34,236 bases of DNA, taken from the NCBI GenBank assembly GCA_014377625.1, contig JACMPG010000119.1, forward strand, positions 1 to 34,236, read 5' to 3'. Origin of the DNA: Spirosoma sp. (lineage in GTDB: Bacteria; Bacteroidota; Bacteroidia; Cytophagales; Spirosomataceae). The notes under the pieces are model-generated. The model ran no database searches. It was not told where the DNA came from and worked only from the letters and a program-made list of their open reading frames with translations. The number at the start of each line of letters is the position of its first letter. The first letter of the stretch is position 1. Of the stretch, positions 17,309-22,272 are shown piece after piece. Made by a program: the position numbers and the translations under genes.

Positions 17309-18499
17309 ATGAAGCTCAAATTTTCGCGCGTAGTACTCGGCGTTTGCAGTGTTACCCTCTTTGCCGGTTCGGCGCACAGCCAAACGACAGGCCAGCCAAC
17401 AATTCCTACGCTGAACGGTCAGCGACTCCAAGTGCCAACCTCCTCCGTACCCTTCCTGAACTTCACGCCCGACGCCCGGTCTGGTGCGCTGGGCGATGCG
17501 GGTGTAGCCCTCGGCGATGCCGATGCCACGGCTATTTTCTGGAATCCGGCCAAATTGGTTTTCGCCAAACAGGACAAAGGAGCTGTTGTATCCTACACGC
17601 CCTGGCTTCGTGACCTCATCGGCGATATGTATTATACGAACTTGAGTGGCTATTCTAAAGTCGGTAAAAACTCGGTGATCGGTGCGTCGTTGCTGTATTT
17701 TGATCTCGGCACGGTCGATTTCACTACGGCCCAGGGCGTAGCCGCCGGTACGTTCAACTCCCGCGAATATGCCGCTACGGTTTCGTTTGGGCAGCGACTG
17801 TCCGAGAATCTGTCGCTGGCGGTCAACCTCAAATACCTGAACTCCAATTTAGCCGCCGGATCGAGCGTGCAGGGCCTGAAACCCGGTGCTACCGCAGCCG
17901 CCGACATCGGTATCTATTACCAGAACGAAACCCGCGATCCATCAACGGGGCAGGGATTGGGCTGGGCCTTTGGCGGTATGATCTCCAACCTCGGCGGTCG
18001 GCTCAATTACGGCGGACAGGAGCGGTATTTCATTCCTACCAACCTGCGCGTTGGTACGGCCATCACGTATCATACCGATCAGTACAATAAGTTCAATTTC
18101 CTGCTCGACTTCAACAAGTTGATGGTGCCCACGCCAAACGTAGTGAATGGGGTCAACCTGAATGCCAATAAAAACTATTTCTCGTCAGTGTTCGGCTCCT
18201 TTGCCGACGCACCGGGCGGGTTCAGCGAAGAGTTGAAAGAAATTACACTCTCGACGGGTCTCGAATACTGGTATAACGAACAGTTTGCGGTGCGGGCGGG
18301 CTATTTTGGTGAATCGAACGACAAAGGTGGGCGTAAGTACATCACGACCGGCCTTGGGCTGCGGTTGCAGGATCGTTTCGGTGTCGATTTCTCGTATGTG
18401 CTGCCTGTGAGTCAGCAGGTCAGTCCACTCTCCAACACGTTCCGGATCTCGCTGTTGTTTAACTTCAAAAGTGCCGATAGCTCATTTGACAACGAATAA
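17309..18499 (+). CDS. porV: Type IX secretion system outer membrane protein PorV
   Basis: VPFLNFTPDARSGALGDAGVALGDADATAIFWNPAKLVFAKQDKGAVVSYTPWLRDL is the PorV N-terminal signature; signal peptide and barrel-like C-terminus; follows porU. Confidence 0.93.
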   Translation: MKLKFSRVVLGVCSVTLFAGSAHSQTTGQPTIPTLNGQRLQVPTSSVPFLNFTPDARSGALGDAGVALGDADATAIFWNPAKLVFAKQDKGAVVSYTPWLRDLIGDMYYTNLSGYSKVGKNSVIGASLLYFDLGTVDFTTAQGVAAGTFNSREYAATVSFGQRLSENLSLAVNLKYLNSNLAAGSSVQGLKPGATAAADIGIYYQNETRDPSTGQGLGWAFGGMISNLGGRLNYGGQERYFIPTNLRVGTAITYHTDQYNKFNFLLDFNKLMVPTPNVVNGVNLNANKNYFSSVFGSFADAPGGFSEELKEITLSTGLEYWYNEQFAVRAGYFGESNDKGGRKYITTGLGLRLQDRFGVDFSYVLPVSQQVSPLSNTFRISLLFNFKSADSSFDNE

Positions 18500-18510: not shown

Positions 18511-18587
18511 GAAGAGTGATGAGTGAAGAACGGGCTGACGCATTAGTAACATTCATGCGTCAGCCCATTCTTTACTCATCACTCTTC
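18511..18587. repeat. 77-nt long hairpin (33-nt arms, 11-nt loop) between porV and the M16 gene
   Basis: GAAGAGTGATGAGTGAAGAACGGGCTGACGCAT (18511-18543) versus ATGCGTCAGCCCATTCTTTACTCATCACTCTTC (18555-18587): 31/33 complementary. Confidence 0.93.
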
Positions 18588-18598
18588 GTTTATAATTT

Positions 18599-19876
18599 AT
18601 GCTCGATAGAACCCAGACACCGGCTTTTCAGGCCATTCAGGAAGTACAATTACCTACGCCCGATACGCATACGCTGACCAACGGCATTCCGCTGCATCTA
18701 ATCCGGGTTGATCACCAGCCTGTTTTGCGCATCGAGTGCATTTTTGATGCCGGTAGCTGGCACGAGCAAACGCCCTCGTCGGGGTTCTTTGCGGTTAAAA
18801 TGCTGGCCGAGGGATTGCCTAACCGTACATCGGCGCAGATCAGCGAGTATTTCGACGGCTTTGGCGCATTTCTCGAACTGAACAGCGGACCCGACCGCTC
18901 CAGTGTGGTTGTTTACTGCCTCACTAAGTTCCTGCCAAACATCCTGCCGGTATTGCGTCAACTGCTTACCGAGCCAACGTTTCCCGATAAGGAGCTGACC
19001 GATCTGCGCAACATTACACTGCAAAACCTGCGGGTCAACTACGAGAAAAATGCCTACCTGGCCGGGGTGCTGTTTCGGCAGAAACTCTTCGGAGCCAATC
19101 ACCCCTACGGTCGTAGTCAGCAGCCCGAGCAGATTGCCAGCCTGACCCAGTCTGACGTAGTTAGCTTTTATGAACGTGTGCTCCAGAATCGACCCTTTCA
19201 GATCCTGCTGGCGGGGCAGGCCACTGAGCAGGATGTAGCTTTGATTGACCGCGAACTGGGTCAGATTCCCCTCCGCACGGACGATTTACCCGTAATAGTC
19301 CACAACCCTGACCCTGCCAACGACCTGCTGACGTTGACCGAGAAGCCCGACAGCACTCAGTCGTCTATACGGATGGGCAGGCGGTTGTTTACGCGGGCGC
19401 ACCCCGATTTCTTCAAGATGGTCGTTACCAACGAGATTCTGGGCGGTTATTTCGGCTCGCGACTGATGAAAAATATTCGCGAAGAAAAGGGCTTCACGTA
19501 TGGCATTTCGTCCAACATACCCTCGTTCCGGCGCGACGGGTACTTTTTAATCGGTACCGACGTAAACCGTGAGAATACGCAACAGACGCTGGACGAAATC
19601 AGGAAGGAAATCAGGACGCTGCAAACCGAACCCGTGCCGGAACACGAACTCGAAACGGTCAAGAATTTTATGGCCGGTGAGTTTGTCGGTTCGCTTAATA
19701 CGCCGTTCGAGATTGCAGACCGCTATAAGGTGGTATTGCTCGATAATCTGCCCGCTGACTTCCTGAATACCTATATTCAGCATCTTCGGGCGGTCTCGTC
19801 TGCTGATATTCTGGCAATGGCGAACCGGTACCTGGCGGATGGCGACCTGAACGAGATTGTTGTGGGTGGAAAATGA
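18599..19876 (+). CDS. M16-family (pitrilysin/insulinase-like) peptidase homologue lacking HXXEH
   Basis: HTLTNGIPLHLIRVDHQPVLRIECIFDAGSWHEQTPSSGFFAVKMLAEGLPNRTSAQISEYFDGFGAFLELNSG has M16 organisation but no HXXEH. C-terminal half keeps SRLMKNIREEKGFTYGISS. Confidence 0.88.
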   Translation: MLDRTQTPAFQAIQEVQLPTPDTHTLTNGIPLHLIRVDHQPVLRIECIFDAGSWHEQTPSSGFFAVKMLAEGLPNRTSAQISEYFDGFGAFLELNSGPDRSSVVVYCLTKFLPNILPVLRQLLTEPTFPDKELTDLRNITLQNLRVNYEKNAYLAGVLFRQKLFGANHPYGRSQQPEQIASLTQSDVVSFYERVLQNRPFQILLAGQATEQDVALIDRELGQIPLRTDDLPVIVHNPDPANDLLTLTEKPDSTQSSIRMGRRLFTRAHPDFFKMVVTNEILGGYFGSRLMKNIREEKGFTYGISSNIPSFRRDGYFLIGTDVNRENTQQTLDEIRKEIRTLQTEPVPEHELETVKNFMAGEFVGSLNTPFEIADRYKVVLLDNLPADFLNTYIQHLRAVSSADILAMANRYLADGDLNEIVVGGK

Positions 19877-19887
19877 GTTTTGCTACG

Positions 19888-19913
19888 CTGGACAGGACAA
19901 AATTCCTGTCCAG
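19888..19913. terminator. Hairpin immediately 3' of the M16 gene
   Basis: CTGGACAGGA-CAAAAT-TCCTGTCCAG: perfect 10-bp stem, 12 nt after the stop codon; no clear T-tract. Confidence 0.55.
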
Positions 19914-19972
19914 TCGTTCCTGCCCGAGTTGGTTCCTGCCCCAAATTGGTTGCTTCATTGGCTCTAAATGGC

Positions 19973-19980
19973 TATTTTTG
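19973..19980 (+). promoter_or_regulatory. TAnnTTTG promoter upstream of plsY
   Basis: TATTTTTG, with TTG at 19950-19952 (20-nt spacer). Confidence 0.55.
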
Positions 19981-20055
19981 TGGCTTTGTACTCAAACTGA
20001 TGGCAATGGGGCAGGGCAACAGCCTTCCCTCAAAATGTTAAATTTAATTTTATAC

Positions 20056-20706
20056 ATGAATATTTTCCTGATCTGTCTGACAACGGTTGCGGCTTATCTT
20101 ATTGGTTCTATTCCAACGGCTGTCTGGTACGGACAAGGATATTTTGGCGTTGATGTTCGGGAACACGGCAGCGGTAATGCGGGAGCAACCAACACGTTTA
20201 GAGTACTGGGCAAACGAGCCGGTACCATTGTACTGCTCATTGACGTACTAAAAGGCTACACCGCGGCTGCAATGGCCCCGTTACTCTGGTATCTTGACAT
20301 CATCACGATCAATGAAATACCGACCTTCAAAATTGTTTTTGGCTTAGTTGCGGTCATTGGACACCTCTATCCCGTTTTTGCGGGGTTCAAAGGTGGCAAA
20401 GGTGTTGCCTCGCTGCTGGGGCTGATTTTAGCCATTCACCCAGAAATGGCGGCTGTCTGCATCGGCGTTTTTCTGCTGGTTGTCATTGCCTCTCAGTATG
20501 TGTCGCTCGGTTCCATTCTGGCCGCGCTGGCATTTCCGGTGCTGTTATTGCTCCGTATTTTCGGTCAGCCTGAGCGGCCCATCTTCATTGTATTCGGTTT
20601 CGTAATTTTCCTGCTGGTTGTGTTCACGCACCAAAAAAACATTGCCCGCCTGTTCCGTGGCGAAGAGAGCCGCACTATCCTGTTCTGGTTTCAGAAGAAG
20701 AAGTAA
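20056..20706 (+). CDS. plsY: Glycerol-3-phosphate acyltransferase PlsY
   Basis: AYLIGSIPTAVWYGQGYFGVDVREHGSGNAGATNTFRVLGKRAGTIVLLIDVLKG, HLYPVFAGFKGGKGVAS. ATG 20056 preferred over the ORF-track start at 19873. Confidence 0.95.
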   Translation: MNIFLICLTTVAAYLIGSIPTAVWYGQGYFGVDVREHGSGNAGATNTFRVLGKRAGTIVLLIDVLKGYTAAAMAPLLWYLDIITINEIPTFKIVFGLVAVIGHLYPVFAGFKGGKGVASLLGLILAIHPEMAAVCIGVFLLVVIASQYVSLGSILAALAFPVLLLLRIFGQPERPIFIVFGFVIFLLVVFTHQKNIARLFRGEESRTILFWFQKKK

Positions 20707-20711
20707 TTATT

Positions 20712-20832
20712 GTTACGGCACCGGCGGACCGGCAGAGATGCGCAGAGGAAAAGGAGATACGCAGAAATTTAATTATCCTCTACGTATCTCCTCTTTCTCT
20801 GCGCATCTCTGCCGGTCCGCCGGTGCCGTAAC
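20712..20832. repeat. 121-bp near-perfect intergenic palindrome
   Basis: Left arm 20712-20765 GTTACGGCACCGGCGGACCGGCAGAGATGCGCAGAGGAAAAGGAGATACGCAGA versus right arm 20779-20832: 51/54 complementary, 13-nt AT-rich loop AATTTAATTATCC. Confidence 0.97.
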
Positions 20833-20907
20833 AACCCTTCAAACTTTTCACTACCCTCGTAACAACCTCCCAAACTCCGTAACTTGGGGCGTTTTTACTG
20901 ACGACTT

Positions 20908-22272
20908 ATGCTAATCGACTACCTCGACCAAAACAGGCAGCGGTTTCTTGACGAACTGCTCGACCTCCTTCGCATTCCATCGGTTTCTGCCGATTCCAAA
21001 TTTAAAGACGACGTCCGTCACGCGGCAGAGTTCGTGCGCGAGAAACTCGATGCGGCTGGTCTGGATGATGCCCAACTGTTTGAAACGGCGGGCCATCCCA
21101 TTGTGTTTGCGCAGAAGATGGTCGACCCCGCCCTGCCTACGGTACTGGTCTATGGCCACTACGATGTGCAGCCCGCCGATCCCTACGAACTCTGGAAAAC
21201 CCCACCTTTTGAGCCGACCATCCGCAACGAGCGCATCTACGCACGCGGTGCCTGCGACGACAAAGGGCAGTTTTACATGCACATCAAAGCCCTTGAAGCC
21301 ATGCTGGCTACCGACGGTCTGCCCTGCAACGTAAAAGTGATGATCGAGGGCGAAGAAGAAGTCGGTTCTGATCACCTCGGTACGTTTGTAGCACAAAACC
21401 GCGAACTGCTGAAGGCCGACGTGATTCTGATATCTGATACGAGCATTATCTCCAATGAAACACCCTCGCTCGAAGCAGGATTGCGCGGGCTGTCGTACGT
21501 GGAGGTAGAAGTGAACGGACCCAACCGCGACCTGCATTCGGGGGTGTATGGCGGGGGCGTGGCCAACCCAATCAACGTATTGACCCAAATGATTGCCAGT
21601 CTGCACGATGAGCAGGGCCGCATCACCATCCCGGGGTTTTATGATCAGGTTGTTGACCTAACTGATGCTGAACGCGCCGAATTGGCCAAAGCCCCGTTTG
21701 ACCTGACCGAGTACGAGCGCGACCTCGGCATCGACGCCGTAATGGGCGAAGCGGGATACTCCACTAACGAGCGTACCAGTATTCGACCTACACTCGACGT
21801 AAACGGTATCTGGGGTGGCTACACAGGCGAGGGTGCCAAAACTGTATTGCCCGCTAAGGCATCGGCTAAAATCAGTATGCGTTTGGTACCCAATCAAACG
21901 CCCGACGAAATCACTGAGCTGTTCACGAAACATTTTGGGTCTATTGCGCCGGCGGGTGTGACGGTTGAGGTACGCCCGCATCACGGTGGTTTACCCTACG
22001 TAACGCCTACGGATTCGGTGGAATTTGAAGCAGCCAGCCGGGCGTTTGAAGATGCCTGGGGTAAGAAGCCCATTCCAACGCGGGGGGGCGGCAGTATTCC
22101 TATTGTGGCGTTGTTTGAGCAGGAACTGGGTGTAAAATCAATCCTGATGGGGTTTGGCCTGGACATCGACGCGCTACACTCGCCTAACGAAAGCTACGGT
22201 CTGTTCAATTTTTATAAGGGCATCGAAACGATTCCGTACTTCTACAAAAACTACGCGGAACTGAAGAAATAA
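20908..22272 (+). CDS. M20-family dipeptidase
   Basis: LLRIPSVSADSKFKDDVRHAAEFV, TVLVYGHYDVQPADPYELWKTPPFEPTIRNERIYARGACDDKGQFYMHIKALE, IEGEEEVGSDHL, ARGG-like TRGGGSIPIV, FGLDIDALHSPNE. Confidence 0.95.
   Translation: MLIDYLDQNRQRFLDELLDLLRIPSVSADSKFKDDVRHAAEFVREKLDAAGLDDAQLFETAGHPIVFAQKMVDPALPTVLVYGHYDVQPADPYELWKTPPFEPTIRNERIYARGACDDKGQFYMHIKALEAMLATDGLPCNVKVMIEGEEEVGSDHLGTFVAQNRELLKADVILISDTSIISNETPSLEAGLRGLSYVEVEVNGPNRDLHSGVYGGGVANPINVLTQMIASLHDEQGRITIPGFYDQVVDLTDAERAELAKAPFDLTEYERDLGIDAVMGEAGYSTNERTSIRPTLDVNGIWGGYTGEGAKTVLPAKASAKISMRLVPNQTPDEITELFTKHFGSIAPAGVTVEVRPHHGGLPYVTPTDSVEFEAASRAFEDAWGKKPIPTRGGGSIPIVALFEQELGVKSILMGFGLDIDALHSPNESYGLFNFYKGIETIPYFYKNYAELKK

Follow-up and report, generated by a model that had tools for sequence, protein, structure and literature searches.

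What lies between plsY and the M20-family dipeptidase gene of this Spirosoma genome, and how did the two arms of the palindrome found there come to be so alike? The window, that is the whole stretch of 34,236 nucleotides that was analysed, contains at positions 20710-20834 a composite palindrome, for which the repeat search gave 56-nt arms (20710-20765 and 20779-20834), 95% complementary, around a 13-nt loop; the near-perfect palindrome of the original prediction (20712-20832, 54-nt arms) is the same object. Its RNA fold reaches -108.5 kcal/mol, against a mean of -35.3 for shuffled sequences (z = -18.6; 0 of 200 shuffles equalled it), a stability that far exceeds chance. The identities proposed for the flanking genes, both on the forward strand, are supported: plsY (19873-20706) by TIGR00023 and the dipeptidase (20908-22272) by NF006053/PRK08201; since the PlsY match covers the protein only from residue 66 onwards, the ORF start at 19873 is probably too early. 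The palindrome begins 3 nt downstream of the plsY stop codon (20704-20706), and no T-tract stands directly behind it, in agreement with the lack of a strong one reported before; the terminator-like hairpin with a TTTTT tail found further downstream on the forward strand (20875-20894, also delimited as about 20855-20895) is a separate feature. The window contains another near-perfect palindrome, at 18511-18587 (33-nt arms, 94%, 11-nt loop), which has a different sequence (GAAGAGTGATGAGTGAAGAACGGGCTGACGCAT) and sits 12 bp behind an ORF ending at 18499.

The palindrome behind plsY is a nested structure, composed of a dispersed palindromic repeat of about 95 bp, here called the host palindrome, and of a separate 15-bp micro-insert in each arm. 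Alignment of the family copies assigns to the host palindrome the left outer end TTGTTAC (20710-20716) and the right outer end GTAACAA (20828-20834), both on the forward strand, while BLASTN and covariance-model matches throughout the genome identify its inner part, GCAGAGATGCGCAGAG...CTCTGCGCATCTCTGC (20732-20812). The left-arm micro-insert, GGCACCGGCGGACCG, occupies 20717-20731 on the forward strand, between C20716 and G20732; it is a variant of the consensus CGCACCGGCGGACCG, recognised as a dispersed 17-mer and by comparison with insert-free family copies, which read GTTACGCAGAG. Arm comparison places the mirrored micro-insert at 20813-20827 on the reverse strand, as a private variant identical to the left-arm one, and both arms read GTTA-CGGCACCGGCGGACCGG-CAGAGATG.

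When the element is compared by BLASTN with its own genome (G000; 5.33 Mb in 378 contigs, 85% complete), the inner part recurs often and the GC-rich outer part seldom alongside it. An ordinary family member without micro-insert reads GTTGTTACGCAGAGATGCGCAGAG...CTCTGCGCATCTCTGCGTAACAAC, the ends being conserved as GTTAC...GTAAC or related sequences; the repeat search and the family matches place one such copy in the window itself, at 703-801. A covariance model built from 13 copies yields 113 matches in this genome, both strands counted, and the host palindrome occupies at least 51 distinct sites, 46 of which are intergenic by calls that rest on ORF length and are approximate; for 33 of the 46, a neighbouring ORF has its stop codon no more than 40 bp away. 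In other genomes of the genus the model finds from 0 to 143 matches, and in other families few or none. The host palindrome thus has the terminal inverted repeats, the dispersal (51 sites) and the lack of an ORF that characterize MITEs; inspection by eye of the flanks of the listed copies revealed no consistent target-site duplication, and in this respect it departs from MITEs. A suspected linkage of CGCAGAG repeats to GxxExxY genes (PF13366) was rejected, as the only such gene lies on C136, a contig with no host-palindrome copy among those listed.

In seven relatives the host palindrome is missing from the orthologous gap between plsY and the dipeptidase gene. There plsY is followed by a conserved terminator-like hairpin, GCCCCGwCGTTGCG...GCGTAACTTCGGGGC, in full GCCCCGwCGTTGCGyGAAAAgtGCGTAACTTCGGGGC (L226-L229, L234, L235 and L237), whose loop sequence is also conserved and which has no match in Rfam; the T-tailed hairpin downstream in the window is a degenerate version of it. 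The empty gap and the conserved hairpin of the relatives, together with the remnant in the window, suggest that the host palindrome most likely arrived between plsY and its terminator. The dispersed REP/MITE-like element that had been postulated for this site, with the intergenic bias expected of it, is therefore recognisable in the inner palindrome; the GC-rich outer part is instead a second, independent repeat, the micro-insert, which had been overlooked.

A structured RNA, the alternative offered at first, or a plsY terminator, with selection for the transcript fold, would agree with the very stable fold and with the position directly after stop codons. The arms of the host family do covary, with 421 double changes (0 of 500 shuffles), although the alignment, which includes both strands of most sites, was made to follow the structure, so that this is only a lean estimate of significance. 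However, mismatches on the transcribed strand are A-C (42) about as often as G-U (47; p = 0.67), which suggests that the pairing of the arms is maintained by DNA-level processes and not by an RNA function. Rfam returned for the focal palindrome microRNA-precursor look-alikes alone, below the gathering cut-off; with no Rfam family, no T-tract, and relatives that lack the palindrome and own a separate conserved hairpin at the orthologous site, selection on the transcript is a very improbable explanation.

The micro-insert measures 15 bp and converts a CG step into CCGCACCGGCGGACCGG (CGGCACC... in the focal copy), a motif also given as GGTCCGCCGGTGCGG; a few copies differ at the last base, so that the length of 15 bp may not hold for every copy. 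CCGCACCGGCGGACCGG is present in the genome in 12 exact copies and in 77 when up to two mismatches are admitted, versus 2 for a reversed-pattern control. All 25 genomes of the genus that were searched contain the micro-insert, while the 14 from other families contain none; a wider sample added four genomes of the same family (22 exact copies in G068, one each in the other three) and G041, a fragmented genome from a different family, whose 7 exact copies (L300-L306) occupy modules of their own (GCGAAGCAA-insert-CTGCGCAGCAG) and may derive from transfer or contamination. An assembly artefact was rejected, as genomes whose assemblies consist of a single contig or a few show these inserts and pairs as well. 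Motif positions 6 and 17 are C-G in 114 copies, T-A in 11 and A-T in 4, against A-G in 8, T-G in 5 and few others; this pairing tendency hints at a small hairpin, and single-unit folds are no better than those of shuffles.

Related sequences were also observed. A sister motif, CCGGTCCGGCGTTCCGG, is found at least 5 times in the same genome (L253, L255, L258, L259 and C239:15694), and locus L196 has a related motif twice (CCGCTTCGGCGGTCCGA and TCGCTTCGGCGGTCCGA), with similar palindromic flanks, CTCTTTGTGCCT...TGTGGTT. Variants of the micro-insert accompany a Y1/TnpB element of the IS605 type: CCGCATCGGCGGACCGA lies behind tnpA in L155 (G000:C176) and L157 (G000:C42), and a further variant, CCGCGACGGCGGACCGT, lies between tnpA and tnpB in L155.

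The dispersal of the micro-insert suggests that it may be mobile in its own right, as the SDR elements of cyanobacteria are. Six palindromes carry the block in one arm, the mirrored arm reading exactly CG (L003, L091, L102, L116, L117 and L143); relative to the empty arm, the occupied one shows a net gain of 15 bp and no duplication. In L003, on contig C161, the block is in the right arm alone and the left arm reads GTTACGCAGAG. Within coding sequences, even those of essential genes, the same unit amounts to five added codons: in a sulfatase RTGGP follows the GDLGCY motif and is missing from 23 of 25 homologues, while RNGGP in the AccA of G022 is missing from both PDB sequences aligned. Comparable inserts were identified in ORFs, checked against Pfam, for a NUC1-type nuclease, a group II intron reverse transcriptase, DPP IV and an IS110 transposase, as well as in those for RlmN and RfbB, the last two providing weaker evidence than sulfatase and AccA because they are located in loops of variable length among homologues; the five-residue inserts seen are RTGGP, RNGGP, RSAGA and AGPPV. 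A single sequence so strongly over-represented genus-wide might also be expected if the 17-bp motif were a protein-binding site, arisen repeatedly by mutation and selection and not by insertion. The exact 15-bp gain with respect to both empty arms and homologous proteins, and the five-codon inserts in unrelated genes, make this extremely improbable, and the empty sites already contradict it.

In 28 palindromes the micro-insert is present in both arms, at mirrored positions. The hosts of these pairs are clearly different (GTAGAGA...CAATCCC; ATCCCGA...CAGGAGG; CACAGAG...CACAAAG; CGAAAGA...TGAATGA; ATTGTTA...CAGAGAT in the focal case; and others), and the named genomes with mirrored pairs are Spirosoma fluviale, S. 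validum, S. endophyticum, Fibrisoma limi, Larkinella soli and Fibrella aquatilis. The distribution of the micro-insert by itself points to Spirosoma as the probable genus of the host. These counts come partly from loci picked for holding pairs, and the ratio of paired to solitary copies is valid only from unchosen samples, where solitary copies form the majority, pairs a minority, and a few copies are of the one-arm kind. The two members of a pair differ at 0.25 positions on average, versus 0.98 when arms are shuffled, and the arm pairs have 11 non-consensus positions in common, a value reached in 0 of 10,000 permutations; the focal pair has in both arms a C-to-G change that appears in no other sampled locus. 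One host palindrome has the micro-insert in opposite orientations at its corresponding target (L130; L310), implying more than one insertion there. Micro-insert pairs at larger distances, 0.5-3 kb, occur in G023, and would be candidates for the two boundaries of a larger parent element.

The reading that we prefer, with a probability of about 0.6, is that of a nested repeat in which the palindrome of about 95 bp came first, a 15-bp insertion in one arm followed, and arm-to-arm copying completed the structure. At the focal locus, a dispersed REP/MITE-like palindrome would have entered the gap that separates the plsY stop codon from its terminator; the micro-insertion element would then have entered a C^G step of one arm, with no target-site duplication; and template switching would have copied the insert to the mirrored site of the other arm, as in quasipalindrome correction, restoring a near-perfect palindrome. 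Template switching is a process known in inverted repeats (PMC7202029), and the homogenisation of their arms by this route is established (PMC8604942).

The main competing explanation dispenses with the second step: the 15-bp unit would enter, in duplex form, the stem of an extruded cruciform or lagging-strand hairpin and so reach both arms in one event, which would account for pairs that are always exactly mirrored and have their variants in common. Against it stand one-arm copies of perfect consensus with an intact empty partner (L091, L116, L117 and L143) and the many solitary copies outside palindromes, which show that insertion into ordinary sequence occurs; we consider it unlikely. The one-arm copies favour the two-step route, with insertion probably preceding copying. 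One palindrome, on C239, carries CCGGTCCGGCGTTCCGG in one arm and CCGCACCGGCGAACCGG in the opposite one, that is two different subfamilies, a combination that simple copying does not explain.

Inverted pairs spaced about 50-165 bp apart recall instead a REPIN, and RAYT-like genes are present in the genome; the micro-inserts would then be two inverted REPs that a RAYT transposase moves together with their spacer. However, the palindrome extends outside the pair, where it matches insert-free copies, the spacers are unrelated from palindrome to palindrome, and copies exist in single arms and in coding sequences. No GTAG or CGTC tag is found at the foot, either in the consensus CCGCACCGGCGGACCGG or in its flank composition, and the RAYT-like genes L156 and L158 adjoin other repeats; a search of the 1.5 kb around them that allowed up to 3 mismatches found no micro-insert in this 85% complete genome. 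This explanation is quite improbable, being already largely contradicted. The linked Y1/HUH transposase looked for on the basis of the original prediction was likewise not found: the four PF01797 matches of the genome adjoin other repeats, and RAYT linkage was found neither for the host palindrome nor for the micro-insert.

A broader form of the two-step reading, in which a 15-bp mobile element spreads via bare CG steps in Spirosoma and neighbouring genera, adds five codons to the genes of housekeeping proteins and, with one palindrome arm serving as template for the other, duplicates itself between them, is advanced more tentatively, and one may well doubt it. In size the micro-insert would rank among the smallest known mobile DNA elements, and we know of none smaller than 15 bp. 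If true, mobile DNA this short would exist in a phylum other than Cyanobacteria, raising the question of which enzyme recognises and moves so little sequence; it would also account for the odd five-residue inserts of Spirosoma-type proteins, AccA included, which annotators and structure predictors will encounter. The series of one-arm and both-arm palindromes with exact empty sites would represent a natural record of arm-to-arm copying, countable across the genus.

The open-licence papers searched contain no description of the micro-insert for Spirosoma. The nearest known kind is represented by the SDR elements of heterocystous, Nostoc-type cyanobacteria, which, as Elhai et al. reportedly described in 2008, are hairpins of 21-27 nt with compensatory changes, as compared with the 15 bp of the micro-insert. 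Like SDRs, the micro-insert is a very short, dispersed, non-coding and lineage-restricted unit in many copies (12 exact and 77 near ones here; 25 of 25 genus members), and it is nested in other repeats; the tendency of its positions 6 and 17 to pair may be a further resemblance. Its target position is also exact, as indicated by the six CG partner arms and by homologous proteins without the five residues, and SDR5 similarly inserts at an exact target, between nucleotides 3 and 4 of HIP1 (PMC4390886). Unlike SDRs, it resides in Bacteroidota, its target is a bare CG, and it forms five-codon inserts in conserved proteins and mirrored pairs in palindromes.

REP and REPIN sequences, which are RAYT-associated and include GTAG- and CGTC-tagged ones, are also short, GC-rich dispersed units, reported to occur as dimers within longer palindromes and also within ORFs (PMC3733652, PMC3116915); the micro-insert has neither tag nor linked RAYT, is half the unit size, and sits in the arms, not as a central dimer. 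The RAYT-like genes L158 (G000:C22) and L156 (G000:C367) are themselves flanked by other palindromic repeats (GTAGGTTGGAC... and CTAAAGCAGACGG...), in a REPtron-like arrangement. Rickettsia palindromic elements are encoded in-frame in ORFs (PMC3733652) and likewise add residues to unrelated conserved proteins, but their insertions are longer and palindromic, while the micro-insert contributes 15 bp and five residues. The palindromic GC clusters of yeast mitochondria are short, GC-rich, hairpin-forming dispersed elements, some of only 18 nt; they belong to an organelle genome, and the part of the source consulted describes no mirrored pairs (PMC4478555). In quasipalindrome correction and arm homogenisation, finally, one arm templates the other and erases the differences between them (PMC8604942, PMC7202029), as proposed here; such events usually involve few bases, whereas in these palindromes a foreign insert of 15 bp would be duplicated from one arm to the other.
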